Assembly: GCA_028279115.1 (NCBI GenBank) | Contig: JANQSV010000159.1 | Location: forward strand, 1-39,708 | DNA from: Pseudomonadales bacterium | Lineage (GTDB): Bacteria; Pseudomonadota; Gammaproteobacteria; Pseudomonadales; Pseudohongiellaceae | Direction: 5' to 3' | DNA length: 39,708 bases | In this document: positions 5,025 through 35,636 of the stretch, piece after piece | Layout of the letters: the number at the start of each line of letters is the position of its first letter | Numbering within the stretch: the stretch's first letter is position 1 | Notes under the pieces: model-generated | Told to the model about the DNA's origin: nothing | The model's input: the letters and a program-made list of their open reading frames with translations, nothing else | The model's database searches: none | Position numbers and translations under genes: made by a program

Positions 5025-5055
5025 CACTAATTGCGTGTAGCACAAAGGTTGCGCC

Positions 5056-5208: not shown

Positions 5209-5216
5209 AACAGAAC

Positions 5217-7658: not shown

Positions 7659-7700
7659 ATTCTCCTTCCCACACCTGCAATGCAGAGTTATCGCTTTCGC

Positions 7701-7726: not shown

Positions 7727-7729
7727 GCC

Positions 7730-11460: not shown

Positions 11461-11462
11461 TC

Positions 11463-14400: not shown

Positions 14401-14606
14401 AGCGGCAGGTGGCCGACCCTAGTGATACAACCGTCGAGATCGTCACGCTGCGCGTCGACGATGCGATCCGCAAATCGAAAATGGCGGACTTTCACGGTCA
14501 TCCCATGAAGGAGAAAAAGATACGCAATGCCATCAAGAAAATCCTTCCAGATGTCGATCTCGTCGATAAACTTTTCGAAATAGTAAAGGCTCAGCGTGAA
14601 TACTGA
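11463..14606 (+). CDS. hsdR: Type I restriction endonuclease subunit R (HsdR)
   Basis: Motor and nuclease subunit (1047 residues) that pulls DNA past the bound complex and cuts at a distance when the site is unmethylated. The N-terminal PD-(D/E)XK nuclease is seen as P-D-V-V at about 135 and L-E-L-K near 148-151. The helicase follows: P-loop T-Q-G-S-G-K-S near 279-285, motif II D-E-C-H at 393-396, and G-F-T-G-T-P (motif III) near 420. The C-terminal third is helical and contacts the methyltransferase. Length and motif order are normal and nothing is broken. It starts 2 bases after the DUF4062 gene and overlaps the next gene by 11 bases. Confidence 0.95.
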   Translation: MTTVGEREIETQRRVVRFFQDALGYGYLGNWEDRLGNANIEQDILASWLRLQGHNDKITSRAVELLRKAASVGGVTNLYDANREVYGLLRYGVKVQPKPGEHARTTWLIDWDNPHNNDFAIAEEVTVEGAGDKRPDVVIYVNGIALGVLELKRSIVSLAEGIRQNLDNQKPEFIRPFFATAQLLMAGNETEGLRYGVIETPEKYWLRWKESEAHPDAGDNLLLKELGQLCGKERLLEIVHDFMVFDAGIKKTCRHNQYFGVRAAQEHVANREGGIVWHTQGSGKSLLMVWLAKWINENVNGGRVLIVTDRKELDEQIEKVFKGVNEDIYRTGSGADLVSVLQSAEQWLIASLIHKFGSRDEASERDIDGYIAEIKKHLPKGFRAKGEIFVFVDECHRTQSGKLHKAMKALLPEATLIGFTGTPLLKSDKARSIEIFGPYIHTYKYDEAVRDKVVLDLRYEARDIDQDLTSEAKVDQWFDAKTAGLTDLAKAQLKQRWGTMRAVMSAEDRLRKIVADIALDMETRDRLKSGHGNALLISDSIHSACRLYEMFNGNALAGKCAIVTSYQPSKSKIKGEETGEGLTEKLRKFNIYRKMLAEHFDEPEDKAMRKIEQFEKDVKKRFIEEPGQMKLLIVVDKLLTGFDAPSATVLYIDKKMQDHGLFQAICRVNRLDREDKEYGYIVDYKDLFRSLEKSISDYTGEAFEAFDREDVAGLLKNRLEQAREQLEEAREAVKALCEPVEPPKDSPAYFHYFCATDSGDAEQLKANEPKRLALYKMAAAYLRTYSDLANEMEAAGYSAAEARTIRDEVDHYEKVRSEVKLASGDYIDLKVYEPAMRHLLDTYIRAGESEKISAFDDLPLVELIIERGSGALDSLPDGIRGNREAMAETIENNVRRLIIDEMAVNPRYYEHMSTLLEELIAERKRQALDYQAYLAKIVALAGKVRDPDQARYPQAINSPARQAIFDLLQDLPELGAILAKRQVADPSDTTVEIVTLRVDDAIRKSKMADFHGHPMKEKKIRNAIKKILPDVDLVDKLFEIVKAQREY

Positions 14607-16850: not shown

Positions 16851-16860
16851 GAAAGGAATC

Positions 16861-17829
16861 TCATGAATCCGCCTCTACAACTTTCGCGGACCGGGCTTCG
16901 CGCAACTCGGTCACGGCAACGAAGATGTCCTCGATATCGGGAAACACCTGGTCGACCTGGGCCGCGATGCCCGCGCGGCGCAGGGCCTGGTCGACGATTG
17001 CGGCCGGCTGGGGAATCTGTTTCGGAATCTGCGCCCGCAGCTTCGAGCCGAGCCGGGTCAGGCTGACGATTTGCGCAACGTCGTGCAAGGCCAGATGCGC
17101 CGCGTCCGCATCGGGCGCACGCGCTTCTATCACATGGGTGTCGATATTCTCGCCCAGCCGGCGCGGCGAACCGTCGGCCACTTTCACGCCCCGGTCGAGT
17201 ATCGCCAGATTGTGGCAGCGCACGGCTTCGTCCATGTAATGCGTGGAGACGAGAATCGTCGTGCCCTGCTCGGCGAGTTCGAACAGAGCTTCCCAGAAAT
17301 CGCGGCGATTGCTCGGATCCACCGCGCTGGTCGGCTCGTCGAGCAGCAACAGGTGCGGCCGATGCATGGTCGCCGCGGCAAGCGCGAGGCGTTGCTTCTG
17401 CCCGCCGCTCAAGGTGCCCGCGCGTTGCCGCTCCCGGCCCTTGAGATTGAAGCGGCCGAGGAGTTCGTCCATGCGCCGGCGGCGTTCCCGCCGGGGAATG
17501 GCGTAGACCTCGCCGATGAATTGCAGGTTTTCCCGCACGCCCAGGTCTTCGTAGAGCGAGAAACGCTGGGTCATGTAGCCGATTCGCTGTTTGAGCGCTT
17601 CCGAATCGCGGCCGGCGTCGAGCCCGAGTACGTTGGCCTGGCCGGAACTCGGCGTCAGCAGTCCGCAAAGCATGCGTATGGTGGTCGATTTGCCCGAGCC
17701 GTTGGGGCCGAGAAAGCCGTAGATCTTGCCGGAGGGAACGTCGAGATCGACTTCATTGACCGCGACGAGGGCCCCAAAGCGCCGGGTCAGCCCGCGCGCC
17801 TGGATAGCGAATTCGCCGTTACCCTGCAT
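16861..17829 (-). CDS. ABC transporter ATP-binding protein
   Basis: The 322-residue ATPase of the exporter. Walker A G-P-N-G-S-G-K-S-T is at 41-49, the signature L-S-G-G-Q at 140-144, Walker B L-L-L-L-D-E-P-T at 160-167, and the switch histidine in S-T-H-Y-M-D-E-A. After the 220-residue core there is an extra C-terminal domain, as in DrrA and CcmA-like exporters. It starts 20 bases after the lipoprotein gene ends and stops 10 bases before the permease starts. Confidence 0.94.
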   Translation of the reverse strand: MQGNGEFAIQARGLTRRFGALVAVNEVDLDVPSGKIYGFLGPNGSGKSTTIRMLCGLLTPSSGQANVLGLDAGRDSEALKQRIGYMTQRFSLYEDLGVRENLQFIGEVYAIPRRERRRRMDELLGRFNLKGRERQRAGTLSGGQKQRLALAAATMHRPHLLLLDEPTSAVDPSNRRDFWEALFELAEQGTTILVSTHYMDEAVRCHNLAILDRGVKVADGSPRRLGENIDTHVIEARAPDADAAHLALHDVAQIVSLTRLGSKLRAQIPKQIPQPAAIVDQALRRAGIAAQVDQVFPDIEDIFVAVTELREARSAKVVEADS

Positions 17830-17849
17830 CTTTCAATGGATGAAATTGT

Positions 17850-18809
17850 TCAATCATTGGTAAAAAGCGCTTGGACCGGAAGACCTTCCGGCAAGCGCTC
17901 GGGCAGGTCGGGCATGCGCACTTCTGCGAGAAAGGACAGCCGTCCGCGATCCCGCTCGGTGAGCGCGAAATACGGCGTGAAACTCGCCTCGGCGGCAATG
18001 CGGCGAATCGTCCCGGTCAACGGCTGTTCGATGCCGTCGACGGCGATGCGCATGGTGCTGCCTACCCGCAATCCCGCACGCAACGGTTCGGGAATGTAAA
18101 CCCGGGCGTATGGCTGGTCGCCGGTCAACAGCACGGCGACCACGTCGCCCGGACGCGGACGTTCGCCGACTTCAAAGGGCAGTGTGTCGACCACTCCGTC
18201 CACCGGCGCCGCCACATGCAGGCGTTCGCGGTCGAGCTTGAGCGAATCGAGTTGGGCTCCGGCCTGGCCGAGCAGGCCTCGGGTCTGTTCGATCTGCTCC
18301 GGCCGCGTGCCCGCTTCGAGCTCCGCCAGCCGCGCCGAGACGATTTCGATTCTGGCGCCGGCGGACTCGAGCAGGTTGCGCGCCTGGTCGACGCTTTCCT
18401 CCGAAGTCAGGTTGCGTTCGCGCAAGCCCGTCAGCCGGTTCAGTTCGCGCTCGCGGAAATCGCGCTCGATCTCGGCTTCGAGCAGACTGGCGCGGGTGGC
18501 TTCGATGGTCTCTATCCGCGGACCGTTGACCTGCTCTTCGAGCTGCGCTTCGATACGGGCGATATTTGCCTGGCCCTCGCGAATGCGGATGTCGAGCCGC
18601 GCGGTGTCCTGCCGCAGGATCAGCGCGCCGGCGGCAAGCGCATCGCCTTCGAGCGATGCGATTTCGACGATGGGTTCATTCGATTCGGCGACGACCTCGA
18701 CCCGGTCGGATTCGAGCTGCCCGTACGCCTGTAACGGCGGCTCCTCGCAGCCGGCCAGCGCGAGCAGGGGTACAAGGAAGAAGCCCTGCCAAATCTTCAT
18801 CCCCCACAT
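17850..18809 (-). CDS. HlyD-like periplasmic adaptor lipoprotein of the ABC exporter
   Basis: A 319-residue membrane fusion protein that would link the ABC exporter to the outer membrane. The N-terminus is a lipoprotein signal ending L-A-L-A-G-C-E-E, so the protein is lipid-anchored. The central part (about 90-190) is a long alpha-helical hairpin rich in Glu, Arg and Leu, flanked by the two halves of a lipoyl/barrel-sandwich domain (E-S-N-E-P-I-V-E-I and V-A-A-P-V-D-G-V-V). ATG codons at 18809 and 18800 are both possible; neither has a good ribosome binding site. A small inverted repeat, cacatt-t-aatgtg, covers the start at 18805-18817. It lies 23 bases after the outer-membrane barrel gene on the same strand. 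Confidence 0.88.
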   Translation of the reverse strand: MWGMKIWQGFFLVPLLALAGCEEPPLQAYGQLESDRVEVVAESNEPIVEIASLEGDALAAGALILRQDTARLDIRIREGQANIARIEAQLEEQVNGPRIETIEATRASLLEAEIERDFRERELNRLTGLRERNLTSEESVDQARNLLESAGARIEIVSARLAELEAGTRPEQIEQTRGLLGQAGAQLDSLKLDRERLHVAAPVDGVVDTLPFEVGERPRPGDVVAVLLTGDQPYARVYIPEPLRAGLRVGSTMRIAVDGIEQPLTGTIRRIAAEASFTPYFALTERDRGRLSFLAEVRMPDLPERLPEGLPVQALFTND

Positions 18810-20456: not shown

Positions 20457-20830
20457 GAGTTCTGACGCTCGCGCTACTGTTGGCTCTGGGCTCGCAGGCG
20501 CGGGCCGCCGAAGACTACGCGCATTACTGGAATGGCGTCTGGAACGCCGAGGGTACGCTGTTTTCGGTGGAAGTGACGGTTACGGACGGCCGCGTCGAAT
20601 TGCGCCAGCTCGAATCCCTCGGCTTTCAGTGGTCGAGTTCCGCGGGCAGGGTGGCGGGGTCGATAATGGAGTTCGAAGTCGACTACGCCGGCGTGTCGGG
20701 CGTGATCCGCGCCCGGCTCGAAGACGCGAGCACGGCCATCGTATTCGCCCGCACCTGCGTGCCCGACTTCATGGTCGTCTGCGTCCTCGCGCGGGACCGC
20801 CAGGCGAGATTCCGCAAGATCAGCGACTGA
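20453..20830 (+). CDS. Small secreted protein of unknown function
   Basis: A 125-residue protein not recognised as a known family. It starts at GTG 20453 inside the upstream stop (GTGA), so it is probably co-translated with the NnrU-like gene. The first 20 residues are a clean Sec signal (L-T-L-A-L-L-L-A-L-G, then Q-A-R-A-A). The mature part looks like a small beta-rich domain: G-T-L-F-S-V-E-V-T-V-T-D-G-R-V-E-L-R-Q-L. Two Cys near residues 103 and 110 could pair. The gene overlaps the convergent cytochrome gene by 11 bases at the 3' end. Confidence 0.7.
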   Translation: MRVLTLALLLALGSQARAAEDYAHYWNGVWNAEGTLFSVEVTVTDGRVELRQLESLGFQWSSSAGRVAGSIMEFEVDYAGVSGVIRARLEDASTAIVFARTCVPDFMVVCVLARDRQARFRKISD

Positions 20831-21419
20831 CTTCCCCGCAATTGTCCTGGCTTTGGCGGATATAGGCGATGATCTTCCAGACGTCGCTGTCGCCCTCGGG
20901 AAAATTCTCGCCGAAACCGACCATGCGCGTATCCGGTACGCCTTCCTTGATGATGCGGAAGATTTCCGCGTTGTCCTGCGCGTGGGTCCATTGGCAATCG
21001 AACAGGAACAGCGCATCGGCCTGGTCTGGCTCCTCCTTGATCAGGTTGTGGCAGAAGCTGACGCAGGAGCCGAGAAACAGGTCCTGGCCTCTCCGCAAGG
21101 CGGCGGGGTCGTTCATGTAGCCGGCGACAATGAACTCCGGGGTCGACAGCGGCGGGGGCGATTGTGACTGGGGCGCCGGCGTCGTTTCGCTTTCCCCGCA
21201 GGAAACCAAAACGGAAAACGCCAGGACCAGTAACAACAGACCGCCGGTTCTCGCTTTGCCAACGAGATTCTGCGACTTCGCTTCGCTTCGCGCAGAATGA
21301 CGGGGTGGGGGCGCTTCGCTTCGCGCAGAATGACGGGGTGAGAAACGGTCATCCTGCGCGCAGTCGCAGGATCTCGTCGCCAATCCGGGAATTACCGGCA
21401 AGGGGCGGGATTTGTTCAT
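20820..21419 (-). CDS. c-type cytochrome lipoprotein with an unusual CX3CH haem motif
   Basis: A 199-residue frame. The C-terminal 100 residues are a small class-I-like cytochrome: haem motif C119-V-S-F-C123-H124, with three residues between the Cys instead of two, a likely axial Met166 in D-T-R-M-V-G-F, and the closing helix V-W-K-I-I-A-Y-I-R-Q. Before it, residues 57-74 form a hydrophobic stretch ending L-V-S-C, a lipobox. The first 57 residues are odd: they are encoded largely by copies of a hairpin repeat (21263-21376) and show the repeated translation R-H-S-A-R-S-E-A. The ATG at 21419 overlaps the stop of the MMPL gene (TGATG), and no other ATG, GTG or TTG lies between the repeats and the lipobox helix. 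An electron carrier role is inferred. Confidence 0.75.
   Translation of the reverse strand: MNKSRPLPVIPGLATRSCDCAQDDRFSPRHSARSEAPPPRHSARSEAKSQNLVGKARTGGLLLLVLAFSVLVSCGESETTPAPQSQSPPPLSTPEFIVAGYMNDPAALRRGQDLFLGSCVSFCHNLIKEEPDQADALFLFDCQWTHAQDNAEIFRIIKEGVPDTRMVGFGENFPEGDSDVWKIIAYIRQSQDNCGEVSR
21263..21376. repeat. Cluster of three hairpin repeats inside the cytochrome gene
   Basis: Copy one (21263-21302) has arms attctgcg and cgcagaat around a c/t/g-rich loop. Copy two (about 21311-21340) repeats the run cttcgcttcgcgcagaatga. Copy three (21347-21376) is in the opposite direction with arms atcctgcg and cgcaggat. A fourth relative occurs at 32295-32324. They share a core gtcatycygcgcgaag and a tail gtcgcrgratctcg and look like a dispersed REP/MITE-like family. 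Confidence 0.75.
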
Positions 21420-23890
21420 CAGGCGGTTTCCGGTCCCAGCGGCTTGAAAGTCGCGAGCAATTGCGGCAACAGGGTCAGCGATCCCGTGAGGGCGACCAGC
21501 ATGGCCAGGCTCGTCAGGAGGCCGAATATGCCGGTTGGAATGAAATTCGACAAGACCAGAATCGAAAATCCGGCGACGATCGTCATCGAAGTGAAATACA
21601 TCGCGCGGCCGATGCTGTCGTGGCAGTAATACATGGTCTTGCGATAGTTCCCGAACCGCGGGAATACGCGCCGGAACCGATACATGTAGTGAATCGTGTT
21701 ATCGACGCCGATGCCCACCGACACCGCCGCAATGGTAATCGTCATGATGTCGAGCGGAATATCGAGCCAGCCCATGATGCCGAGCACAAGCGAGGCGGCG
21801 ATGGCGTTTGGAACGATGCAAAGCACCGCTATCAGCAGCGAGCGGAACAGCACCAGGAACATCAGCATGATGGCGAACATGACCACGCCGAGCGTGAGAA
21901 TCTGGGACTGGAACAGGCTTTGCAGCACGTTGTTGTACATCACCAGCAAACCGGTCAGGCGCACCTGGTCGGGCTCGAAGCCGAACTCCTCTTCGAGCCC
22001 CGCCTCGACCCGTTGCAATAGTTCATTGCGATTCAGATCCGGCGCCGATTCGCGCACGCGCACGTTGAAGCGCAATTCGCTGTCGTCGATTCGCACGAAG
22101 GGGTCGAGCACCGCTTCGCGCAAGGTTTGCGGAATGCGGTTGTACATCACCGCCCAGAGCAGGCCGTCCACCGGTTCGTAGTCATTCAGTTGCTCGGCGA
22201 GTTGCACGACGGCGCCCAGCGACAGCACCTTGCCGGTATAGGGGTCGGCGTCGAGATATTCGTGAATCGCCTTGACTTCGGCCATGCGCGGGGCGGTGAA
22301 CCAATAAGCGTCGTCGGATTCGCCACCGAAATCGCCGCTGCCGAAGTCGTCGGCAAATTCGTCTTCGAATACGGCTTCCTCCTCCGGCAATCTGACGATG
22401 GCGTCGAAGGACAAGGTGCCGCCAAGTTGTTCGTCGATCAGGCTCATGCCCTGGTTGATCTCGGTCGATTCTCGGAAGTAGTCGATGAAACTGTTCTCGA
22501 CCCGCAGCCGGGTCAGGCCGGTGACGCCGACGATCAGGATCAGCGCGTAAATCACGAACACCCAGCCGCGCAACTTGTCGGTCAGCCGGGCCAGGGCCGA
22601 AGTCAGGTTCAGACGCAGATCGGAGGATAGCCGGGAGCGTTCCGCCGGCAGCGTCGACATGATCGACGGAAACAGCGTGAAGGCGACGATCAGCGCCGTG
22701 GCGACTCCCATCATCATCATCCAGCCGAAGGTAATGATCGGCAGAATGCCGCTGACGATGAGCGAGCCGAAGGCGACTATCGTCGTCAATGCCGTATACA
22801 GGCAGGGCCGGAACATGCTCAACACGGCATGACGCAACATCTTGCCGTGCCGGCTGAAATGGCGGGTCGCTCGCAATTCGCGGTAACGCACGGTCAGATG
22901 CACAGTGAGCGAGATCGTGATGATCAGCAGCAGCGAGATGAAATTCGAGGAGACCACGGTTACGCGCCAGTCCATCAGCCCGAGCGTGCCCACCATGATC
23001 GTTCCCGCCGCGGCGCAGCAGATCAGCGGAATGGCGATGAATCGGACCTTGCGGAAGATCAGGCCGAGGGCGACGACGATGAGAATCAGCACGGCGATGC
23101 TGAAACTGCTCAGATCGCCCCGCACGAAGGAGATCAGATCGTCGGCGATCATCGGCGCGCCGCTGAGATGGATGCGGGCGCCGTCGCGATAGCGGTCGAG
23201 GGTTTCGCGCACGGCGGTAATCAGTTCGTGCTGTCTTTCGTTGACCGCGATGCTGTAATCCGCCCAAGCGGCTTCGACCTCGCTCAATTCCGCGAGACTC
23301 CCTGTGTCGATTTCCCCGTCGATCCGCAACTGGCGCAAGGCGCTGCGGCGGTCGAGCAATTCCCGCGCCCGCTGGTCGATTTCGATGTTGACCTGCATCC
23401 CGGCGCCGCGGCCGTCGGGGCTGATCAGCGCATCGACATAGATCGGGTTTGCCATCATTTCAACGCGCGCCGCCGCGAGATCGACGCCATCGTCGAGCAA
23501 GGTCAGATAGTCTTCGGATATCCCCGTCAGCGGCGTGTCGGCGAATACCGGCACGTTGAGGATGCTGTCCACCCGCTCGACGCGGTCGATCGCGAGCAGA
23601 TCGTTGTGCAGGCGATCCAGTTTTTCGAGTTCGATCCGGGTGAACAACTCGCCTTCGGGGATATAGGCGACGACGACGAACTCGCGGATGCCATAGCGGT
23701 TTTCCACCTGGCGGAAGAACTCCCAATCGGGATCGTTTTCCAGCAACAGGGAATCCGCCGAGGCGTCCAGCCTGAAGTACTGGGTGAACCAGGCGAAGAA
23801 GGCAACGACGAGCGCGGTGATCCCGATGACCAGCCAGGGTCTGCCAAACACCAGTTCGCCGTAGAGTCTGACAGCCCTCGAAGTCATCAA
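21419..23890 (-). CDS. MMPL/RND family exporter
   Basis: An 823-residue inner-membrane transporter of the RND superfamily, MMPL/HpnN-like branch, which often moves lipids or hydrophobic compounds. One N-terminal membrane helix (about 18-36) is followed by a large periplasmic loop (40-240), five helices (about 245-440), a second periplasmic loop (about 450-640) and six more helices to the end. This duplicated plan and the sterol-sensing-like motif G-V-D-N-T-I-H-Y in the second half are typical. Unlike AcrB-type pumps, it has no adaptor or TolC gene nearby. It is followed by the cytochrome lipoprotein with a one-base overlap. The substrate is unknown. Confidence 0.9.
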   Translation of the reverse strand: MMTSRAVRLYGELVFGRPWLVIGITALVVAFFAWFTQYFRLDASADSLLLENDPDWEFFRQVENRYGIREFVVVAYIPEGELFTRIELEKLDRLHNDLLAIDRVERVDSILNVPVFADTPLTGISEDYLTLLDDGVDLAAARVEMMANPIYVDALISPDGRGAGMQVNIEIDQRARELLDRRSALRQLRIDGEIDTGSLAELSEVEAAWADYSIAVNERQHELITAVRETLDRYRDGARIHLSGAPMIADDLISFVRGDLSSFSIAVLILIVVALGLIFRKVRFIAIPLICCAAAGTIMVGTLGLMDWRVTVVSSNFISLLLIITISLTVHLTVRYRELRATRHFSRHGKMLRHAVLSMFRPCLYTALTTIVAFGSLIVSGILPIITFGWMMMMGVATALIVAFTLFPSIMSTLPAERSRLSSDLRLNLTSALARLTDKLRGWVFVIYALILIVGVTGLTRLRVENSFIDYFRESTEINQGMSLIDEQLGGTLSFDAIVRLPEEEAVFEDEFADDFGSGDFGGESDDAYWFTAPRMAEVKAIHEYLDADPYTGKVLSLGAVVQLAEQLNDYEPVDGLLWAVMYNRIPQTLREAVLDPFVRIDDSELRFNVRVRESAPDLNRNELLQRVEAGLEEEFGFEPDQVRLTGLLVMYNNVLQSLFQSQILTLGVVMFAIMLMFLVLFRSLLIAVLCIVPNAIAASLVLGIMGWLDIPLDIMTITIAAVSVGIGVDNTIHYMYRFRRVFPRFGNYRKTMYYCHDSIGRAMYFTSMTIVAGFSILVLSNFIPTGIFGLLTSLAMLVALTGSLTLLPQLLATFKPLGPETA

Positions 23891-24788: not shown

Positions 24789-25244
24789 GTTTCGGCGACG
24801 CGTTTCTTACCTCTCATCGCACGAAAGACGGCCAGAAAAGATCCGGCGTGGTTTTCTTGCTCAAAGCGAATGTCGCCCCGATAATTGCGCCAACATGATC
24901 AATGGCTGGAGGAAACTCCGGCTTTCTTCCCGACTCGGGAGCTTATGTCGATCTACCCGAATTTCGTCAGCATTTACGGGACGATGGAGAGGCTTGAGAT
25001 AGAGAGTCCATGGAGGGATACCCGCCTCTTGCCTGGAGCGCTTGAAACGTTCCCTGGAGAGTCTCTTGAACCTCACTTGGCGTTTACCATTGCGAAGTCA
25101 GTCAGCAAGTTGACTGCAACAATCTGTTACCGCGACAATTTGCCACTGGGAAGCGATTTTTGGAATTGGTAGGATCACGCCTCGCAATCGGGCCCGCATC
25201 CGGTTGTTGTGGATTACTTGGATAGTAAACATCTGGAGCCGACA
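24789..25244. other. Long gap with no recognised gene
   Basis: About 450 bases lower in GC than the neighbours. One plus-strand frame (24945-25172, 75 residues from an ATG, or longer from a TTG at 24885) is open, but it has no ribosome binding site and no recognisable motif, and another frame in the same place is also open for a while. It may be a decayed gene; no function can be given. Confidence 0.35.
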
Positions 25245-25835
25245 GTGAAGCGATCGATTGGCCTTTTCATTTCCTGCGCATTTGCTCTTGCCGCCGGTGC
25301 GGCTTTCGCCGACGGCTGGCTGCGATCGATACCGGAGTTTGAACTCACCGATCACCTCGGTGAGGTGCATACCCTCGAAACCTACAAGGATTATGACTAC
25401 GCGGTGTTTTACGTCCAGGGCGTAGGCTGTCCCATCGCGCGTCTGGCCCTGCCGAATTATCGCGCGGTTCGCGACGAGTTCGGCCCGAAGAACATCGCCT
25501 TCGCCATGTTCAATTCCAACATCCAGGACGATCTGCCGCGCATCGCCAGGGAAGCCGAGGAATTCGGCATCGATTTCCCGATCATGAAGGACCAAGATCA
25601 GGCGCTGGCCAAGGCGCTCGGCGTGGAGCGCACCGCTGAAGTATTTATCGTCGATCCCCGCACCCGCGACGTATTGTATCGCGGCCCTATCAACGACCAG
25701 TTGGGCTATGAGACCCAGCGCAACGAAGCGCGGGAGCATTACCTGACGGACGCCTTGAACACCGTGCTTGCCGGCGGCGTGGTCGATATGGACGACGTTC
25801 CCGATTCGAAAGGTTGCCTGGTCGCCATATTCTGA
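25245..25835 (+). CDS. Exported redoxin-domain (thioredoxin-fold) protein
   Basis: A 196-residue periplasmic protein. The GTG at 25245 is chosen as start because ggag lies 7 bases upstream and the product then opens with a normal Sec signal (M-K-R-S-I-G-L-F, cut near A-F-A-D). The mature part has the AhpC/TSA-redoxin fold: F-E-L-T-D-H-L-G, the active-site strand Y-V-Q-G-V-G-C62-P-I, and a later P-I-M-K-D-Q-D-Q-A-L-A-K-A-L-G with V-F-I-V-D-P. There is a single active-site Cys and no CXXC, so it is not a disulfide oxidoreductase of the thioredoxin type. It resembles the first domain of the copper monooxygenase fusion at 32460-34160. Reaction unknown. Confidence 0.82.
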   Translation: MKRSIGLFISCAFALAAGAAFADGWLRSIPEFELTDHLGEVHTLETYKDYDYAVFYVQGVGCPIARLALPNYRAVRDEFGPKNIAFAMFNSNIQDDLPRIAREAEEFGIDFPIMKDQDQALAKALGVERTAEVFIVDPRTRDVLYRGPINDQLGYETQRNEAREHYLTDALNTVLAGGVVDMDDVPDSKGCLVAIF

Positions 25836-25893: not shown

Positions 25894-26322
25894 ATGAACG
25901 TCACTCGTCGCGATTTCGCGATTCGCCTTGCCTCACTGGTTGCCGCGGGAGTGGCGCATCCGGCCCTGGGGCAGGATGAACTCCAATCTTTCCGTTCGCT
26001 TTCCGCACGGCTGACGGGATTTTCCGAAGACGAGATCGATCCCGAACTGGCGCTCGACATGATGGAGGGTTTGAGAGCCGCGGGAGAAGGCGCAGATCTC
26101 GGCGAGTTGCTGCTGAACGCGGCGGTGGAAACGGATAACGAACTGGCCCGGCGAATTGCGGTCGCCTGGTATTCGGGCATGCATCCGATTGCTGCGGGAA
26201 CGTCCTTGCGCGCTTACTACGACGCGCTCGTCTGGCGCGCTCTCGAATACACCAGGCCTCCGGGGCAATGCAGCGCGGCGCCGGGAGACTGGAGCGAACC
26301 GCCCGGCGGGGCTGGTCAATGA
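25894..26322 (+). CDS. Tat-exported small subunit of an FAD-dependent dehydrogenase
   Basis: A 142-residue protein with a twin-arginine signal (T-R-R-D-F-A at 4-9, then a hydrophobic stretch cut near A-L-G-Q). It matches the small (gamma) subunit family of membrane-bound sugar/alcohol dehydrogenases such as bacterial FAD-glucose or sorbitol dehydrogenase (PF12318 type): L-T-G-F near residue 45 and W-Y-S-G-M with Y-Y-D-A-L-V-W-R near the end. In that family the small subunit carries the folded flavoprotein through the Tat pathway. Its stop overlaps the flavoprotein start (ATGA, 26319-26322), strong support for a complex. Confidence 0.85.
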   Translation: MNVTRRDFAIRLASLVAAGVAHPALGQDELQSFRSLSARLTGFSEDEIDPELALDMMEGLRAAGEGADLGELLLNAAVETDNELARRIAVAWYSGMHPIAAGTSLRAYYDALVWRALEYTRPPGQCSAAPGDWSEPPGGAGQ

Positions 26323-27935
26323 CCGCGATCGAAGCCGACGTCATCATCGTCGGCGCGGGTTTTGCCGGCGCGCTGCTCGCGGACCGGCTCGCCGCAAGGG
26401 GGATCCGCACGGCGGTGCTCGAAGCCGGCCCCCGGGTCAATCGCGGCGCGGCATTCCGGACTTTTCTCGATACCGCCATAAAGACTCCCGAAAGCCCTTA
26501 CGAACGGCTGCCCGAAGCCGAATTTCCCGACACCCTCGACAGCGGCCACTGGTACCGGCAAGCCGGCCCCGAAGTCTTCAAAAGCACCTATCTGAAAGCC
26601 GTAGGCGGCACATCCTGGCATTGGCTCGGCACCTGTGTGCGCTACGTGCCGAGCGATTTCCGCATGCGCTTGGATTTCGGCCGCGCGGTCGACTGGCCCA
26701 TCGACTATGCCGAACTCGAGCCCTGGTATGTCGAAGCCGAACGCGAACTCGGCGTAGCCGGAGATTCGGACGAAGACCTCGGCTCGCCGCGGTCCAGCCC
26801 GTTTCCGCAACCGCCGATACCAGGCACATGGCTCGACCGCGTCATCGCACGCGCGCTGGAAGGCACGCAATACCAGGTGCGATTGACGCCCCAGGCGCGC
26901 AATTCCGTGGCCCGGGAAGGCCGGCCCGCCTGTTGCGGCAGCGGCACCTGCATTCCCATCTGCCCGGTAGCGGCGAAATACGACGCCACGGTCCATCTCG
27001 ACCGGGCGGAAACCGCCGGCGCCGTGATTCACGACCGCACGACGGCCACGTTTGTCGAAGCCGGTGCGGACGGCCGCGTCTCGGCGGTCCGTTTTCGCCG
27101 GCCCGACGGAACCGGCGACCTTGCCCGCGGGCGCGTCTTCATTCTCGCGGGCAACGCGGTCGAGACGCCGCGCCTGCTGTTGCATTCGCGCTCGGAAGCG
27201 GCGCCCGGCGGAATTGCCAATGCGTCTGACCAGGTCGGCCGCAACCTGATGGATCATCCGATCCAGTTGAGTTGGGCGCTGGCCGGCGAGCCCGTATGGC
27301 CTTACCGGGGACCCATGGCGACTTCGGGCATCGAGAATCTGCGTGACGGTGCATTCCGTTCGCAAAGATCGGCCCTGCGCATCCAGATCAGCAACGATGG
27401 CTGGAACTGGCCCACAGGTGGGCCGGCAACCCTCGCCGATTCGCTTTCGCGCCGGGGTTTGCTCGGCACGGACTTGCGGCGCGCAATCACGGACCACGCA
27501 TCGCGCGAGGTGCAACTCGCGGCGCTGACCGAACAACTGCCCGATCCGGAAAACCGGATAACGCTTGACCCGCGGGACTCCGATCCCTACGGCGCGCCAT
27601 TGCCTAGAATGCACTATCGCGTGGGCGATTATTCCCGGGCCGGGCTCGATTACGCCAGAGACGTCCATGATGAAATCTTCGCGCGCCTGAACGCCAGCGA
27701 AATCCAACATGCGGACGAATTCCAGGGCTCGGGCCACGTCATCGGCACGACGCGGATGGGTAACGACCCGCGGGAATCCGTTGTGGACCGCAACTTGCGC
27801 AGTCACGCTCATGAAAATCTCTTCCTCGTCGGCGCCGGCGTATTCCCGACCGCGTCGACCGCCAATCCGACGTTGACTATCGCCGCACTCGCATTGCGGG
27901 CCGCCGAACAGGTCACGGCGGCGCTTGGCGCGTAG
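26319..27935 (+). CDS. GMC-family FAD dehydrogenase (large subunit) with an iron-sulfur motif
   Basis: The 538-residue catalytic partner of the Tat-exported small subunit. The FAD-binding G-A-G-F-A-G is at 12-17; G-T-S-W-H-W-L-G near residue 95 and the C-terminal G-T-T-R-M-G with S-T-A-N-P-T-L-T-I are GMC hallmarks. Cys205/206, Cys211 and Cys215 (C-C-G-S-G-T-C-I-P-I-C) match the [3Fe-4S] motif known in bacterial FAD-glucose dehydrogenase, which passes electrons to a cytochrome subunit. No multihaem cytochrome subunit lies next to it, so the acceptor is elsewhere. It oxidises an alcohol or sugar hydroxyl, and which one cannot be told. The protein has no signal of its own, as expected. Confidence 0.9.
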   Translation: MTAIEADVIIVGAGFAGALLADRLAARGIRTAVLEAGPRVNRGAAFRTFLDTAIKTPESPYERLPEAEFPDTLDSGHWYRQAGPEVFKSTYLKAVGGTSWHWLGTCVRYVPSDFRMRLDFGRAVDWPIDYAELEPWYVEAERELGVAGDSDEDLGSPRSSPFPQPPIPGTWLDRVIARALEGTQYQVRLTPQARNSVAREGRPACCGSGTCIPICPVAAKYDATVHLDRAETAGAVIHDRTTATFVEAGADGRVSAVRFRRPDGTGDLARGRVFILAGNAVETPRLLLHSRSEAAPGGIANASDQVGRNLMDHPIQLSWALAGEPVWPYRGPMATSGIENLRDGAFRSQRSALRIQISNDGWNWPTGGPATLADSLSRRGLLGTDLRRAITDHASREVQLAALTEQLPDPENRITLDPRDSDPYGAPLPRMHYRVGDYSRAGLDYARDVHDEIFARLNASEIQHADEFQGSGHVIGTTRMGNDPRESVVDRNLRSHAHENLFLVGAGVFPTASTANPTLTIAALALRAAEQVTAALGA

Positions 27936-28408: not shown

Positions 28409-29830
28409 ATGTTTTCAGCAGATGTGTCCGTTCCGCTCTGGCTGTACCTCATCCTGCTCGGGCTGGCGGCTTACGCCATGGTCATGAGCATTCTTTTTCC
28501 CGGCGTGCGCTGGTTTCTGCGCCGCCGGCTCAACATCGCCGTCGATCGCATCAACACCAGCTTGCAGATCAAGATCAGGCCGCTGCAGCAAACCCGGCGC
28601 CAGGTGCTGATCGACCAGTTGATCTTCGATCAGGACGTGCTGGCGATGCTGGAGAAAACCTCCCGCGAGCAGGACATCCCGCGTCAGGTGCTGCAGCAAC
28701 GCGTACGCACCTTCGCCAGGGAGATCGTGCCGGCGTTCAACGCCTACATCTACTATCGGGTGTTCTACTGGCTCGCCAAGAGCGTTTCGCGCTTCGTCTA
28801 CCGCATCCGTGTCGGCGCTTCGCATCCCGAGCGATTGCAGCAACTCGACCCGGAATCTACGGTGGTTTTCGTCATGAACCATCGCAGCAACATGGACTAC
28901 GTACTGGTGAGCTATCTCGCCGCGGAACGCGCGGCGCTGTCTTATGCGGTAGGCGAATGGGCGCGGATCTTTCCGCTGGAAACGCTGATCCGGGCCATGG
29001 GCGCTTTCTTCGTGCGCCGGGACTCTCGCGATCCGCTTTATCGCAAGGTGCTCGAACGGTACATCCACCTGGCCACGGGCAACGGCGTCTGCCAGGCGGT
29101 CTTTCCGGAAGGAAAGCTCAGCCGCGACGGGCGGCTCGGCGAAGCCAGGCTCGGCTTCCTCGATTACATTCTGCGCCATTACGACTGGCAGCGCGCCCGC
29201 AGTGTGGTTTTCATCCCCGTCGCCATCAATTACGACCACGTCCTCGAAGACGGCAATCTGCTCGATTGGGACGACCGGACGAAACATCCGTCCGCGGCTG
29301 AACATCTCAGGCGTCTCTGGCGCTTCCTGCGCCTCAACCTGTTCGCCAGTCCACGGGCGCGATTCGCCCGCTACGGCTATGCCAGCGTCAACTTCGGCGA
29401 GCCGCTGGACATGCGCGAATTCTGCAGGGAGCACGGACTCAATCTGAATCATCTCGAAAAAGAGCAGCGCATCCAGCATGTGGAGCAGATCGCCCGATTG
29501 CTCATGCAGCGCCTGCATCATGTCATGCCGGTATTGCCCGCCCCGCTGGCAGCCCTTGCCCTGCTGCGGCGCCCGGATGAGTCGATGACCTCGCTGGAAA
29601 TCGCCGGCGCCTGCGACGACATCATCGACGAGTTGATGGCGCAAGGCTCGCCGATGAAGAAATCCGAGAAGCCGCGCCCGCGCACGGTGCAGAACGCCTT
29701 GCAACTGATGCGGGAACATGGGCTCGTGCTGGAGGAGGACGATCATTTCCGCATCAATCCGGACAACGTAAGGTTGCTGGAGTTTTATGCCAACTCGATC
29801 CGGCCCCCTGAACCGGCCGCGGCAGCCTGA
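28409..29830 (+). CDS. Glycerol-phosphate acyltransferase-family membrane enzyme
   Basis: A 473-residue enzyme of the PlsB/PlsC acyltransferase group, which moves a fatty acyl chain to a glycerol phosphate or related acceptor at the inner membrane. Block 1 is N-H-R-S-N-M-D with catalytic His158 and Asp163; block III is F-P-E-G at 232-235. One membrane helix lies near the N-terminus (about 8-28). After the acyltransferase domain comes a 150-residue tail with a winged-helix-like end. The length is greater than PlsC and less than PlsB. The next gene, an MMPL exporter, overlaps its end, which suggests work on a lipid that the exporter carries. Acceptor unknown. Confidence 0.87.
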   Translation: MFSADVSVPLWLYLILLGLAAYAMVMSILFPGVRWFLRRRLNIAVDRINTSLQIKIRPLQQTRRQVLIDQLIFDQDVLAMLEKTSREQDIPRQVLQQRVRTFAREIVPAFNAYIYYRVFYWLAKSVSRFVYRIRVGASHPERLQQLDPESTVVFVMNHRSNMDYVLVSYLAAERAALSYAVGEWARIFPLETLIRAMGAFFVRRDSRDPLYRKVLERYIHLATGNGVCQAVFPEGKLSRDGRLGEARLGFLDYILRHYDWQRARSVVFIPVAINYDHVLEDGNLLDWDDRTKHPSAAEHLRRLWRFLRLNLFASPRARFARYGYASVNFGEPLDMREFCREHGLNLNHLEKEQRIQHVEQIARLLMQRLHHVMPVLPAPLAALALLRRPDESMTSLEIAGACDDIIDELMAQGSPMKKSEKPRPRTVQNALQLMREHGLVLEEDDHFRINPDNVRLLEFYANSIRPPEPAAAA

Positions 29831-32177
29831 ACACGACCCGGACTCGATGACCGGGCGCATCGCGAGTTTCTGCCTGTCCCGCCGGCGTGCGCTCTTTTGG
29901 GCCGGCGTCATCGCCAGCCTGCTGCTCGCCGCAGGCGTGTTCAGACTGGGTTTCGACAGTTCGCTCGATTCATTGCTGACGCGCAGCGATCCTTATCTCG
30001 ACGAGCTTGACTTGCTCGAAGCCGAGTTTCCGCAGTCCACCGAAATCGTCTTCGCCTTCCTGGCTCCGGAAGGCGAAAGCGTTTTTTCCCAAGACCGATT
30101 GCAGGCGATCAACGCCTTGCGCGAGCGTTACCTTGAGATTCCCCTGGCCGGGCGTCATTCTTCCTTGCTCGACTACTATTCGCCGCGCAATCTGCGGCGC
30201 CTGTTCGCCCGGGATTTCCGGGAATACGGCGAGGCCGAGCTGGCCGGCCTGATGCAAACCGCGCAAGCGGACGAATTGCTTACCGGCAATTTGCTATCAA
30301 ACGACGCCAGTCTCGCTTTCACGCGCATTCGACTGAACGCCGAATTCGCGGACGAAGCAGAGCGGCTTGACGCCGCCCGCGAAGCCTTGCGCTTGCGCGA
30401 TGCGTTGCGGGAAGAGTTTCCGGAACTGGATATCCATGTCAGCGGCGAAGTTCTGATCGAATTCTCAAGCCGCCAGTCCATGCTCGACGATCTCGGCGGG
30501 CTGCTGCCATTCGTGATCCTCGCCTGTATTCTCGCGATCTGCGGCTTTTTCCGCTCGGTGCGGGCGGGCTTCGCCATACTCGCCCACACGCTGCTGACAC
30601 TGCTTTGCGCGCTGGGGACGCTCGGCCTGAGCGGATTTTCGTTCAATACCGTAACGGCGATCGCTCCGGTCATCATCGTCGTCGTTTGCGTGGCGAGCAG
30701 CGTCCACGTGATTTCGATCTACCGGCAAGGCCTGCTGCGCGGAATGCCGGAGGCGGAAGCGATGAGGTTCAGTCTCATGCATAACATCCGCCCGGTAACG
30801 CTGGCCGCATTGACCACGGCCATCGGATTCGCGTCGCTGAATCTGAGTTCCTCGCCGGCGATCTCCGACTTCGGCAGCACCGTCGCAGTCGGCATCGTGT
30901 TTTCCTGGCTGCTGACGGCGGCCTTGCTGCCGAGCCTGCTCATGGGGCTGATCAAGACCGGAAACGGTTCAAATGACGGTGATTTTCTGCACGGGGCAAT
31001 GAACCAGGTCATCGCCATCGGCCGGCGCCGGGACCGGCAACTGTTCTGGTTCTGCTCGGCATTCGCGGCGATGGGCATCAGCATGCTGCCGCTCAATGAG
31101 ACCGACTTCAACCGGCTCGATTTCATCAGCGACGCCGCCGGGCTGCGCGAATACTTCGACGCCGTCGGCGAGCGCCTCGACCGCGGTCCGTCGATCAGCT
31201 ATGCCGTCGACGCGGGCGCCCGGGACGGCGCCATCGATCCCGCGTTTCTGGCCCGGATGGAAGCATTGCTCGACTGGCTGGGAGAGCGGGACGAGATCGA
31301 ATCTACCGCCAGCGTGGTGGAATTGCTGAAAACCGTAAACGAGATGCGCTACGACGACCCGGACGCCTATCTGTTGCCCGACGATTCCGAAACCATCGAG
31401 AATTATCTGCGGGCCTACCGCTTTGTGCAGAATCTCGATTTCCCGCTGTCGAATTTCCTCAGCGTGGACCGTTCGATCGCGGCCCTCACGGTCAATGCGC
31501 GGCCGATGTCCAATCAGGAACTGCTCGACCTGAACGCCCTGATCGACGCCCGTTTCGAGGCGACTTTCCCCGGCGCTACCCTGGTCCACGGCAGCGGCCT
31601 GCTGGTATTCGCGCGCATGGACGAGCGCGTCACCGTGGAATTGCTGCAAGGCTATTCGCTCAGCCTTGCATTGATCACGCTTACTCTGGTTTTCGGCCTG
31701 GGAAGTGTGTATTTCGGCATCCTCAGCATCATTCCCAATTTGCTGCCCGCGGCCATCGTGTTCGGTTTCTGGGGATTGCTCGTCGGCACACTCGACCCGT
31801 TCGTGATGATGCTGTTCAGTATCAGTATCGGCCTGGTGGTCGACGATACCGTCCACGTGCTGACCCACTACCTGGCGAAGCGGCGCGAAGGCGAAGACAT
31901 CCAGACCGCTGTCGCACATGCGATCCGCACCGCGGGACCCGCATTGACGATCACGACACTCGTGCTGACCCTGGGCACGACCTTCCTGATGGCGGCGAGC
32001 ACTTTCTACTTCCAGCAAGCCGCCCGGCTGCTGGTGCCCATCGTGGTGCTGGCATTGTTGCTGGACGTGTTTTATCTTCCGGCGATATTGCGGCGATTCG
32101 ACAGATTCGCAGCTTTGACGATTCGCTCCCGGTCTCCGTCCGCAAGCCGATCCGCACGGTCCCATTCCGCAACTTGA
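29787..32177 (+). CDS. Second MMPL/RND family exporter
   Basis: A 796-residue transporter with the same plan as the one at 21419: helix one near residue 37-55, a periplasmic loop, five helices (about 225-400), a second loop (about 420-620) and six helices. The motif G-L-V-V-D-D-T-V-H-V in the second half is the equivalent of G-V-D-N-T-I-H-Y. The ATG at 29787 has ggag five bases upstream and overlaps the acyltransferase gene by 44 bases; ATG 29847 is an alternative. The last 20 residues (R-S-R-S-P-S-A-S-R-S) look unlike a family end, as if the original stop was lost or shifted. A possible minus-strand frame overlaps this part. Confidence 0.88.
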   Translation: MPTRSGPLNRPRQPEHDPDSMTGRIASFCLSRRRALFWAGVIASLLLAAGVFRLGFDSSLDSLLTRSDPYLDELDLLEAEFPQSTEIVFAFLAPEGESVFSQDRLQAINALRERYLEIPLAGRHSSLLDYYSPRNLRRLFARDFREYGEAELAGLMQTAQADELLTGNLLSNDASLAFTRIRLNAEFADEAERLDAAREALRLRDALREEFPELDIHVSGEVLIEFSSRQSMLDDLGGLLPFVILACILAICGFFRSVRAGFAILAHTLLTLLCALGTLGLSGFSFNTVTAIAPVIIVVVCVASSVHVISIYRQGLLRGMPEAEAMRFSLMHNIRPVTLAALTTAIGFASLNLSSSPAISDFGSTVAVGIVFSWLLTAALLPSLLMGLIKTGNGSNDGDFLHGAMNQVIAIGRRRDRQLFWFCSAFAAMGISMLPLNETDFNRLDFISDAAGLREYFDAVGERLDRGPSISYAVDAGARDGAIDPAFLARMEALLDWLGERDEIESTASVVELLKTVNEMRYDDPDAYLLPDDSETIENYLRAYRFVQNLDFPLSNFLSVDRSIAALTVNARPMSNQELLDLNALIDARFEATFPGATLVHGSGLLVFARMDERVTVELLQGYSLSLALITLTLVFGLGSVYFGILSIIPNLLPAAIVFGFWGLLVGTLDPFVMMLFSISIGLVVDDTVHVLTHYLAKRREGEDIQTAVAHAIRTAGPALTITTLVLTLGTTFLMAASTFYFQQAARLLVPIVVLALLLDVFYLPAILRRFDRFAALTIRSRSPSASRSARSHSAT

Positions 32178-32266
32178 TCGTCGCTGTAGTAGTCGACTTC
32201 AACTTCGAAATCCGATTTCAATTCATCCTTGCCGTCATTCTCTTCAGGCATCAGGTGGTCCACCAT
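32072..32266 (-). CDS. Possible small acidic protein overlapping the exporter 3' end
   Basis: A 64-residue frame, or 59 residues from ATG 32251, rich in Asp and Glu (S-D-F-E-V-E-V-D-Y-Y-S-D-D-Q-V-A-E-W-D-R-A-D). Its composition looks more like a protein than the opposite reading, which ends the exporter with an unusual Arg/Ser tail. It has no clear ribosome binding site and no family I recognise. It overlaps the exporter gene by 106 bases in the convergent sense. Confidence 0.3.
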   Translation of the reverse strand: MVDHLMPEENDGKDELKSDFEVEVDYYSDDQVAEWDRADRLADGDRERIVKAANLSNRRNIAGR

Positions 32267-32294
32267 GGGGGCGCGGCTCGAATGACGCCGCCCT

Positions 32295-32324
32295 TCGTCA
32301 TTCCGCGCGAAGTCGCGGAATCTC
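32295..32324. repeat. Single copy of the dispersed hairpin repeat
   Basis: Arms attccgcg (32299-32306) and cgcggaat (32313-32320) with loop cgaagt. The flanks match the elements at 21263-21376 (cgtcatt before, ctcg after). It sits in the 282-base gap between convergent genes, where no other gene is recognised apart from a possible small minus-strand frame, and could also slow transcription. Confidence 0.7.
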
Positions 32325-32459
32325 GCTGGAATTCTGACAGGTTTTACTTGCCATCCCTGGCGCGAATCTTTCGCCTTCGATTAGCCCCAGTCTCGACATC
32401 CTGTCGAGCCGTTCGACCCTCGAAAAGCGATGCTTTTCGTCGGCTTCGCCGACCGGGCC

Positions 32460-34160
32460 TCACCCACCCTGATTCTCGAACTTCCAGCTAACGGCGCCGA
32501 AGAACATTTCGTCCCAGCTTTCGTTGCCCCAGTCCACGGCGCGGTCGGGGTTGGGATTGGCCGGATTCCTGGCCGAGTTGTCCCAGGCGGCCACGGCGGT
32601 GATCTTCGTCCCGGCGGGAACGAACTTGGGTTCCTCGTAGGTATAGCTCAACTGCCAGTTGTAGTTGTACTTGGCGATGTTGATCAGTTCCTCGCTGCTG
32701 CCGTCGGGGTAGTCCGCGTAGAAACGCATGTACTTGCCGCGGAAGTGCATGTGCGGCAGGTAGCTGTGAATTTTCGCGTCGCGCTCTATCACGATGCTGG
32801 CGGTCTGCTCGAAGGCCGGCTCATGTGGAGGAATCGTGGTCCATGTGTTGGGAAAAACACAGGCGCAGCGTCCGCTCATTCTTTCCTCGGGCACCTCTCC
32901 TTCCGGATAGAACCACAGGCCAAGCTCGCTGCGGTCCACGGTCTCGCGGCCGTTCGGCGTGTAATGCATGTTCAGATGCAGCACCGAACCCGCTTTCAGC
33001 AGACCTCCCGTGTTGGGCGGCGCCAGATCGGGCGTGTCGCCGGGAATGTAGGCGGTTATGTTGGCCTTGTCCGGATGGTCCGCCGCCAGGAATCCGCCGC
33101 CGCGGCCGATTTCCTCGGGATAATCGAGCCGGTTCACGGTATGGTGCAATACGGTGCGGTCGCCGGCGATGATCTCGCTGCCCCGCAGCCAACGGTCTTC
33201 TTCCATGTCGATCTCGACCGAGACGTCGACGAAGACGCCATTGCCCGTCGCCGGCACAGTGGTTGCCGGGATATCGAGCACCATGTCGGGCTCGCCGAAA
33301 GCCCACTTGGACTTGGGCCAGGTGAGTTTGGCCAGCGGATCGCTGTCGCCGTCCACCGGAGCGCCGGCTTCCACCCAGGCGATGATGTTGCGCTTGTCTT
33401 CACGGTCGATCAGGCGGTCGTTGATGAACTCGCCGATATGCCCGTCGATCTGGCCGGGAGGCATGCGGCGGGTCATCAGCACCTCGCGGATCATCGGCGA
33501 CCAGCCGCGGACCATGGTGTGGCTGTCCATGGCGAAAGGCGCGACGCCGCCGGCGCGATGGCAGCTTGCGCAATTCTCGGCCAGCACCGGCGCGATGTCC
33601 CCGCTATAGGAAGGAACGCCCTGATCCGGGTATTCGACCACCGAACCCGAACTCGCGATCAGCGGCGCACTGATTTTCTCGCCGGCGAGAAATTCGCCGA
33701 TGGCGGCCGCGGCGCCTTCCGCCGTGCCGCGATACTCGACGGCAAAGGAGCCGGGATCGTATAGCAGCACTTCACCGGTGCGTTCGATGCCCATGGCTTC
33801 GGAGACGATCTGCGCGTCATCCATCAGCACGGGAATTTCGACGCCCCATTGATCGAGCTTTGCCTGCACGGCTTCGCGATTGAATCGGGCCATGGGGTTG
33901 ATCATCATGAACTCGACGCCTTGCCCGCCGTATTGTTCATGCAGTTCCAGGAATCGCGGCAGGGCGGCTTCGGTCGCCGCGCTGTCGTTCGCCTGCACGA
34001 GGAAGGCGATCAGTTCGTGGTCGCCGTACCAGCTCATGCCATGGTGGTAACCCGCCTGGTCGAGCAGCGAAAAATCACCGACCCGGTCCTGCGCCGCGGC
34101 GCCTGCCGCCAAGGGCAGCGCCAGCAGGGCCGCCAATCGGAACATGCCTGATCTGATCAT
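32460..34160 (-). CDS. Redoxin-cytochrome c-copper type II monooxygenase fusion
   Basis: A 566-residue exported protein with three parts. A Sec signal (about 1-23) leads to a redoxin-like domain (25-165) that lacks the usual Cys. A short haem-binding domain follows with C197-A-S-C-H201 and probable axial Met in R-R-M-P-P-G. The rest (about 285-560) resembles the peptidylglycine/dopamine beta-monooxygenase family: His339-His340 and His399 (or 395) for one copper, and H470-M-H472 with Met552 in W-D-E-M for the second, the full ligand set. Such enzymes hydroxylate C-H bonds with O2 and an electron donor; the fused haem domain may feed electrons. The start is ATG 34160 with gagga upstream. The substrate is unknown. 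Confidence 0.85.
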   Translation of the reverse strand: MIRSGMFRLAALLALPLAAGAAAQDRVGDFSLLDQAGYHHGMSWYGDHELIAFLVQANDSAATEAALPRFLELHEQYGGQGVEFMMINPMARFNREAVQAKLDQWGVEIPVLMDDAQIVSEAMGIERTGEVLLYDPGSFAVEYRGTAEGAAAAIGEFLAGEKISAPLIASSGSVVEYPDQGVPSYSGDIAPVLAENCASCHRAGGVAPFAMDSHTMVRGWSPMIREVLMTRRMPPGQIDGHIGEFINDRLIDREDKRNIIAWVEAGAPVDGDSDPLAKLTWPKSKWAFGEPDMVLDIPATTVPATGNGVFVDVSVEIDMEEDRWLRGSEIIAGDRTVLHHTVNRLDYPEEIGRGGGFLAADHPDKANITAYIPGDTPDLAPPNTGGLLKAGSVLHLNMHYTPNGRETVDRSELGLWFYPEGEVPEERMSGRCACVFPNTWTTIPPHEPAFEQTASIVIERDAKIHSYLPHMHFRGKYMRFYADYPDGSSEELINIAKYNYNWQLSYTYEEPKFVPAGTKITAVAAWDNSARNPANPNPDRAVDWGNESWDEMFFGAVSWKFENQGG

Positions 34161-34323
34161 CGAGTAGTCCTCTATGATTTTGTTATGCGCGGCAGACACC
34201 CGCCACGAAGTCCAGCCTTTGATTCTACGAACTCCCTCAATAAACCGGCAAGCACAAAATCCCGCCCAATTGTGACAATGAGTTACTTGAACGCGCCAAT
34301 CTCACCTACTCCAGAAAACTTGC

Positions 34324-34355: not shown

Positions 34356-35636
34356 ATGGACATTGATTCCACATTCATAGAGCGTTCGGCAGGGGCCGCC
34401 GTCGAACGCGCTTTCCGGGAATTCCCCGTAGTGGTTGTGACCGGCCCCAGGCAGTCAGGCAAAACCACGTTATTGCGCCGGATGTATCCGGAACTGCGCT
34501 ACGCCTCCATGGATGCGCCTGATTTGCGCGCTGCGGCGCTGGAGGATCCGAGAGGGTTTCTCGCGCAATTTCCCGCGCCTGCGATTCTCGACGAAATCCA
34601 GCAGGCGCCGGAGATGCTTTCCTATGTGAAAGAGCAGGTCGACAACAACCGGAGCGAGGCCGGGCAGTATCTGCTTACCGGCTCTCAGAATCTGTTGCTG
34701 ATGCAACAAGTTTCGGAAACGCTCGCCGGGAGAGCCGCCGTGTTGCGGCTGCTGCCATTGACGTTTCGGGAAATCATGCGCAGTCCCAGCGCCAAACTTC
34801 CTTGGAACAGGGATGATCCCCAGCCGGAGACCAGCTCCGGCCCGATTTCGACGGACAATTCCACGGTCATGCCCGCTTTGGCGAGGGAACAACTCTGGAA
34901 GCTGATCCTTCGGGGAAGTTATCCTGAAATCGCGCTGCAAACAGAACGCGACTCAACGCTTTGGCATCAAAGTTACATGCAAACGTATCTCGAACGGGAC
35001 GTTCGAACGTTGCGGCAAATCGGCGACCTCGGCAGTTTTCAGGATTTCCTCCGGGCGCTGGCCGCGCGCAACGCGCAACTGCTCAATCTGAGCGAGTTGT
35101 CGCGCGACCTCGGCATCGCGGTCAACACCGCCAAGAGCTGGTTGTCGGTGCTGGAAGCGAGTTTTCAGATAGTGATCGTGCGCCCCTGGTTCTCAAATAT
35201 TGGCAAGCGGCTGGTGAAGACACCAAAGGTCTACTTCACGGATACGGGAACGCTTTGTTACCTGACCGGACTGAAAGAGCCGGATCACGCGGCCCAGGGC
35301 CCACTCGGAGGCGCCCTGTTCGAGACCGCCGTGCTCGCTGAAATCGCACGTTCCATCTGGCACCGGGGAGAGGAACCGAGGATTCACTTCTGGCGCACGA
35401 CTTCAGGCGTGGAAGTGGATTTTCTGGTGGAGTCCGGCGATGAAATCGTACCGGTCGAGGTCAAGCTGTCCGCGACGCCCCGCCCGCGCATGGCGGATGG
35501 CATCGCAAAATTGCGAAACCTGCTGGCGGACTCCCGCTTCCGACTGCGCCAAGGTTATGTGATCCATCCCGGCGAAGCGGAATGGCCGCTCGGACCACAT
35601 GCAAAGGCCTTGCCTTTCAGCAAATTGTGGGGCTGA
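34356..35636 (+). CDS. AAA ATPase with DUF4143 domain
   Basis: A 426-residue ATP-binding protein of the large AAA_14/DUF4143 family. Walker A is G-P-R-Q-S-G-K-T at 30-37 and Walker B is A-I-L-D-E-I at 76-81 (Asp79-Glu80). The C-terminal domain includes F-W-R-T-T-S-G-V-E-V-D-F-L-V and V-P-V-E-V-K, which recall a PD-(D/E)XK nuclease fold. The family is widespread, often lies alone and is often variable between strains; its role is not established. It lies between convergent or divergent neighbours and forms no operon. Confidence 0.92.
   Translation: MDIDSTFIERSAGAAVERAFREFPVVVVTGPRQSGKTTLLRRMYPELRYASMDAPDLRAAALEDPRGFLAQFPAPAILDEIQQAPEMLSYVKEQVDNNRSEAGQYLLTGSQNLLLMQQVSETLAGRAAVLRLLPLTFREIMRSPSAKLPWNRDDPQPETSSGPISTDNSTVMPALAREQLWKLILRGSYPEIALQTERDSTLWHQSYMQTYLERDVRTLRQIGDLGSFQDFLRALAARNAQLLNLSELSRDLGIAVNTAKSWLSVLEASFQIVIVRPWFSNIGKRLVKTPKVYFTDTGTLCYLTGLKEPDHAAQGPLGGALFETAVLAEIARSIWHRGEEPRIHFWRTTSGVEVDFLVESGDEIVPVEVKLSATPRPRMADGIAKLRNLLADSRFRLRQGYVIHPGEAEWPLGPHAKALPFSKLWG

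Follow-up and report, generated by a model that had tools for sequence, protein, structure and literature searches.

PHM and DBH are the textbook animal enzymes of peptide hormones and noradrenaline, respectively, and in both of them two coppers are reduced by ascorbate. Residues R240, N316 and Y318 of PHM bind the peptide, with R240 and N316 contacting its carboxylate. The copper ligands are H107, H108 and H172 together with H242, H244 and M314 in PHM, where Q272 and Q170 belong to the substrate and water network (PMC6123673), and H262, H263 and H333 together with H412, H414 and M487 in DBH (PMC4846438). A search of open-access papers found no characterised bacterial member of the family.

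The window analyzed here, a stretch of 39,708 nucleotides from a Pseudomonadales bacterium (GCA_028279115.1, contig JANQSV010000159.1), carries on its minus strand an open reading frame at 32460-34199 with 579 open codons, of which the GTG at 34199 is the most upstream start. Translation probably begins at the ATG at 34160, which leads into a Sec-like signal peptide and would give a protein of 566 amino acids; the alignments of homologues begin at approximately residue 1-9 of this protein. Residues are numbered with the ATG at 34160 as residue 1, and the gene is laid out as follows.

32460..34160, minus strand: coding sequence of the three-domain protein, 566 aa (reading frame open to GTG 34199; homologue alignment)
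34092..34160, minus strand: predicted Sec-type signal peptide, residues ~1-23, MIRSGMFRLAALLALPLAAGAAAQ (sequence reading; low pLDDT)
33726..34088, minus strand: redoxin domain, PRX_like1/ResA-like, residues 25-145, with Ser60 in place of the catalytic Cys (Pfam; Foldseek 3u5r, E 1.9e-9; alignments)
33558..33572, minus strand: c-type haem motif C197-A-S-C200-H201 (invariant in 53/53 homologues and 35/35 fused relatives)
33456..33464, minus strand: M233-P-P, probable distal haem ligand (invariant in both homologue alignments)
32886..33308, minus strand: CuH subdomain, residues ~285-425, with H339 and H340 (33141-33146) and H399 (32964-32966) (Foldseek; profile alignment)
32859..32867, minus strand: C432-A-C434 in the interdomain linker (52/53 orthologue-clade homologues against 4/35 fused relatives)
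32463..32843, minus strand: CuM subdomain, residues ~440-566, with H470 and H472 (32745-32753) and M552 (32505-32507) (profile alignment)

The preliminary description of this gene had proposed a fusion of a PHM/DBM-type copper core with a haem motif and a redoxin lacking its active Cys, and profile comparison, Foldseek and alignments confirm this: as predicted from its sequence, the protein consists of a signal peptide, a Cys-less PRX_like1-type redoxin, a haem c domain and a PHM/DBM copper core. In Pfam, AhpC-TSA (2.7e-6) is the sole domain above the cut-off, the cytochrome match is weak, and Cu2_monooxygen/Cu2_monoox_C stay below the cut-off in the window protein while reaching 2.5e-14 for the C domain in relatives. 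A search of the genome with PF01082 gave no match, but since the control was also empty this result is no evidence of absence. The sub-cut-off Pfam score reflects the reach of the models rather than any biochemical property that defines the superfamily, and the profile and fold comparisons outweigh it.

For these comparisons a profile was built from 41 divergent copper domains, in which only 10 columns are invariant and 6 of those are the PHM/DBH copper ligands; a random draw from the approximately 283 columns would produce this with a chance of about 3e-10, a figure that ignores the frequent conservation of His and Met. The profile matched the whole core of human DBH (2.7e-10) and of rat PHM (5e-8), and in both alignments HH, H, HxH and M fell on their counterparts. 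An AlphaFold2 model built from 53 homologues (mean pLDDT 79, pTM 0.70) pointed the same way, its C-terminal part matching PHM 8dsl (E 1.9e-9, probability 1.00) and human DBH 4zel (E 2.8e-9) in a Foldseek search of the PDB, while the superposition of the whole core on PHM was loose (TM by target ~0.5, rmsd 6-9 A), as was the domain orientation. The two-subdomain fold, the His/His/His set of CuH and the His/His/Met set of CuM that mark the PHM/DBM superfamily are thus all found, and on the strength of sequence profile and model we regard the homology of the copper core to PHM/DBH as real. The copper assignment had been made to depend on homologues retaining the ligands, and they do: H339, H340, H399, H470, H472 and M552 are invariant in 53/53 homologues. 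The ligand list originally put forward is upheld for H339, H340, H470, H472 and M552; where it left the third CuH ligand as His399 or His395, His399 (53/53) is the one that stands, and His395, present in 17/53, is ruled out.

The haem c domain is equally constant. Neither CASCH (C197, C200, H201) nor M233-P-P varies among the 53 homologues or the 35 fused relatives, so that both features of a c-type cytochrome, CxxCH and a distal Met, are found in the sequence and predict the ligation; by analogy with class I cytochromes c, M233 is the probable distal ligand. A CxxCH motif lies immediately upstream of the copper domain in 90/90 distinct family members, including four paralogues in the same genome that have no redoxin domain, which we take as evidence that cytochrome c and copper core form the constant unit and that the redoxin is optional. 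The genome also encodes CcmF, whose presence fits a periplasmic attachment of the haem. The 90/90 count and CcmF strengthen the earlier suggestion that the haem could be the electron donor instead of ascorbate, and we infer that it delivers electrons to CuH. An attached cytochrome c may accept electrons as well as donate them, and the sequence gives no direct sign of the direction. The copper core could accordingly be an oxidase or dehydrogenase that oxidises its substrate while the haem exports electrons to the respiratory chain and no oxygen is inserted. We find this unlikely, as it is at the H, H, M set of CuM that PHM/DBH activate O2, none of the 41 domains deviates from this set, and no additional cofactor for dehydrogenation was seen.

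The distribution of the protein was followed in genomes of Gammaproteobacteria and Planctomycetota. The nearest genomes are recorded as uncultured Pseudohongiella and OM182-clade Gammaproteobacteria, and within this marine OM182/Pseudohongiella-like genus the family is massively duplicated, with 10-25 matches in each genome, some of them fragments or redoxins alone. Among the other genomes of the class, just 3/273 were found to have the full protein. In Planctomycetota 42/119 genomes match at E < 1e-30 and 103/246 carry the copper domain. The three-domain architecture is therefore not unique, being frequent in Planctomycetota and rare in other Gammaproteobacteria, and a fusion peculiar to this organism is ruled out by the Planctomycetota proteins built in the same way. 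A plasmid search with the window protein gave no match. One three-domain paralogue in the same genome (L166:6128-7891; G000:C365) has its CuM His pair changed to RMN, with the haem and CuH ligands kept; some members of the family may therefore lack activity. Such a loss, together with the 10-25 matches per genome, is what would be expected of a non-catalytic copper or redox carrier or sensor arisen by duplication; with the six copper ligands, the haem motif and M233 invariant in 53 aligned homologues, we consider that explanation very improbable for the window protein.

The gene neighbourhood was compared among the relatives, and the following features of the window are relevant.

29787..32177, plus strand: MMPL/RND transporter with a sterol-sensing/Patched-like segment, convergent neighbour (Pfam; 42/57 loci)
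28409..29830, plus strand: PlsB-like acyltransferase, nearby only in close relatives, 6 loci (Pfam; neighbourhood comparison)
26268..27935, plus strand: GMC oxidoreductase, nearby only in the closest relatives (Pfam; neighbourhood comparison)
25209..25835, plus strand: exported stand-alone redoxin that retains Cys74 (GVGCP), a homologue of the fused domain (sequence comparison; syntenic in ~25 loci)
21419..23890, minus strand: second MMPL transporter, conserved alongside the separate redoxin (neighbourhood comparison)
20820..21419, minus strand: small cytochrome c that may be a redox partner (weakly associated, in 4 loci)

An MMPL/RND gene lies within 5 kb of the copper gene in 42 of the 57 loci with enough flank, at 50-90% identity, and in one relative the match of its sterol-sensing/Patched-like segment is as good as 6.4e-12. 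This conserved neighbour weakly suggests a hydrophobic substrate. The MMPL gene is convergent with the copper gene and not co-transcribed with it, and gene order within one genus may persist without function. The GMC oxidase and the PlsB acyltransferase were discarded as core pathway genes because they are conserved in the closest relatives only. A DUF3237 gene is found between the copper gene and the MMPL gene in 27/57 loci (e.g. L040:11784-12315); it is absent from this genome, which has lost it from the corresponding position (32177-32460), and it was rejected as a required partner. Elsewhere in the window, an AAA_14/DUF4143 ATPase (34356-35636) directly upstream of the copper gene is not kept in relatives, positions 3158-14606 hold a defence-like block (AAA_21 ATPase with DUF4276, HsdM, HsdS, a DUF4062 protein and HsdR; type I restriction-modification), and positions 15750-18809 hold ABC-2 transporter, ATPase and HlyD-type export genes.

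The redoxin part of the model matches 3u5r (E 1.9e-9), but the catalytic Cys of an active PRX_like1/ResA redoxin is missing: its position is Ser60 in the alignment, and the mature domain has no Cys at all. Among the fused relatives 29/35 retain this Cys, and the remaining six, with Ser, all come from the genus of the window protein, so the Cys is ancestral and its loss most simply secondary. The likeness of the fused domain to the separate redoxin, pointed out in the preliminary description, holds (31% over 135 aa, E 7.8e-18). The link drawn there between the two genes is borne out by homology and by synteny in ~25 loci; a shared pathway is a possibility. When the phylogeny of both redoxins was determined, the best tree placed the separate protein among the fused-type domains, apart from other gammaproteobacterial PRX_like1 proteins, whereas AU tests rejected none of the alternatives (p 0.22 and 0.44). 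Descent of the stand-alone protein from the fused domain agrees with that best tree and was not adopted, as the same AU tests (0.22 and 0.44) leave the alternatives standing. Because both redoxins belong to a peroxiredoxin-like family and 29/35 fused relatives keep the Cys, one might picture a peroxygenase or another peroxide-handling enzyme, with H2O2 powering the copper site and the redoxin genes adjusting peroxide, and the title of a reference in PMC6123673 speaks of a PHM reaction with H2O2. The Cys is gone from the fused redoxin of the window protein, however, and the haem would be superfluous in such an enzyme, yet it is constant; we judge this quite improbable.

Between the two copper subdomains, C432-x-C434 is present in 52/53 proteins of the orthologue clade and in 4/35 fused relatives, on a loop modelled with low confidence. 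The CxC (32859-32867) is confined to the orthologue clade without the redoxin Cys. From its sequence it is possibly an extra redox or metal site.

With regard to the substrate, the positions of PHM R240, N316 and Y318 hold Leu/Pro, Phe554 and Ala556 in the window protein, and across the family alignment there is no conservation at the R240 and N316 positions. A Gln matching PHM Q272 is found in 38/41 copper domains, and the Q170 position is Q or N in 33/41. With the Q272-type Gln kept and the peptide-carboxylate residues not, the protein probably shares its chemistry with PHM, but not its substrate. PHM proper, a peptidylglycine hydroxylase, is ruled out by the absent R240/N316/Y318 equivalents. 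The same residues bear on a two-step C-N cleavage like that of PAM, with the copper protein hydroxylating beside nitrogen and a PAL-like propeller splitting the product. Within the genus, three-domain paralogues do lie beside NHL propellers in L172, L173, L205, L207, L208, L209, L211 and L215, and these propellers match the PAL domain of PAM (3fvz, 5e-8; 9.9e-7 as a profile), but TRIM71/Thin NHL domains outscore PAL, no NHL gene was found near the window gene or in the sampled Planctomycetota loci, and R240 and N316 are not conserved, which makes this mechanism improbable for the window protein. The cluster at L172:11686-14350, in which a paralogue stands with a PAL-like NHL protein and a HupE/UreJ protein, is a possible bacterial PHM-PAL pair.

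From what the analysis shows, namely the domains and their homology, the set of ligands, the haem fusion found throughout and the neighbours, we lean towards an exported, haem-c-wired dicopper C-H hydroxylase homologous to PHM/DBH, which would work without ascorbate on a hydrophobic or lipid-like substrate handled by MMPL; occupancy by metal and haem, the direction of electron flow, the hydroxylation and the class of substrate are what we infer. The signal peptide would direct the protein to the periplasm or the surface, where the Ccm system would attach haem at C197/C200. Electrons from the quinol/cytochrome c pool, or from the small cytochrome c, would enter at the haem and pass to CuH (H339/H340/H399), to be joined with those at CuM (H470/H472/M552), where O2 would be activated for the hydroxylation of an aliphatic C-H bond. 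The redoxin domain, no longer a thiol enzyme, would have a structural or docking role. The substrate is presumably not peptidylglycine and most likely hydrophobic or lipid-like, moved by the adjacent MMPL transporter.

With haem c joined to the copper core of all members examined, the bacterial branch would show another electron route to a PHM/DBH site and would be a tractable system for how electrons reach CuM. The many paralogues, both in this widespread marine genus and among Planctomycetota, suggest a large unexplored set of C-H oxidations. A much bolder picture, and one we hold to be doubtful, is a large, unstudied bacterial PHM/DBM class made redox-autonomous by its built-in haem c, in which this genus traded the redoxin thiol for the CxC of the hinge and sister paralogues with PAL-like propellers would be the bacterial counterpart of PAM.

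Compared with known systems, the window protein shares the redoxin fold with PRX_like1 (3u5r, 2cvb) and ResA, having Ser60 for their catalytic Cys. Its architecture and ligands are those of the uncharacterised redoxin-cytochrome c-copper proteins of Planctomycetota, which differ in usually keeping the redoxin Cys (GTECP), in lacking the CxC and in their identity of only ~30-35%. With the PHM domain of PAM it has in common the two-subdomain beta fold, the six copper ligands in order and the Q272 equivalent; unlike PHM, it has a haem c domain and a redoxin joined ahead of the copper core and is without the PHM disulphides, at 15-19% identity. DBH, the best profile match (2.7e-10), has the identical ligand set, but is reduced by ascorbate and has a C-terminal dimerisation domain, and where DBH carries a DOMON domain without haem ligands (PMC4846438), the window protein has its haem c in that N-terminal place.
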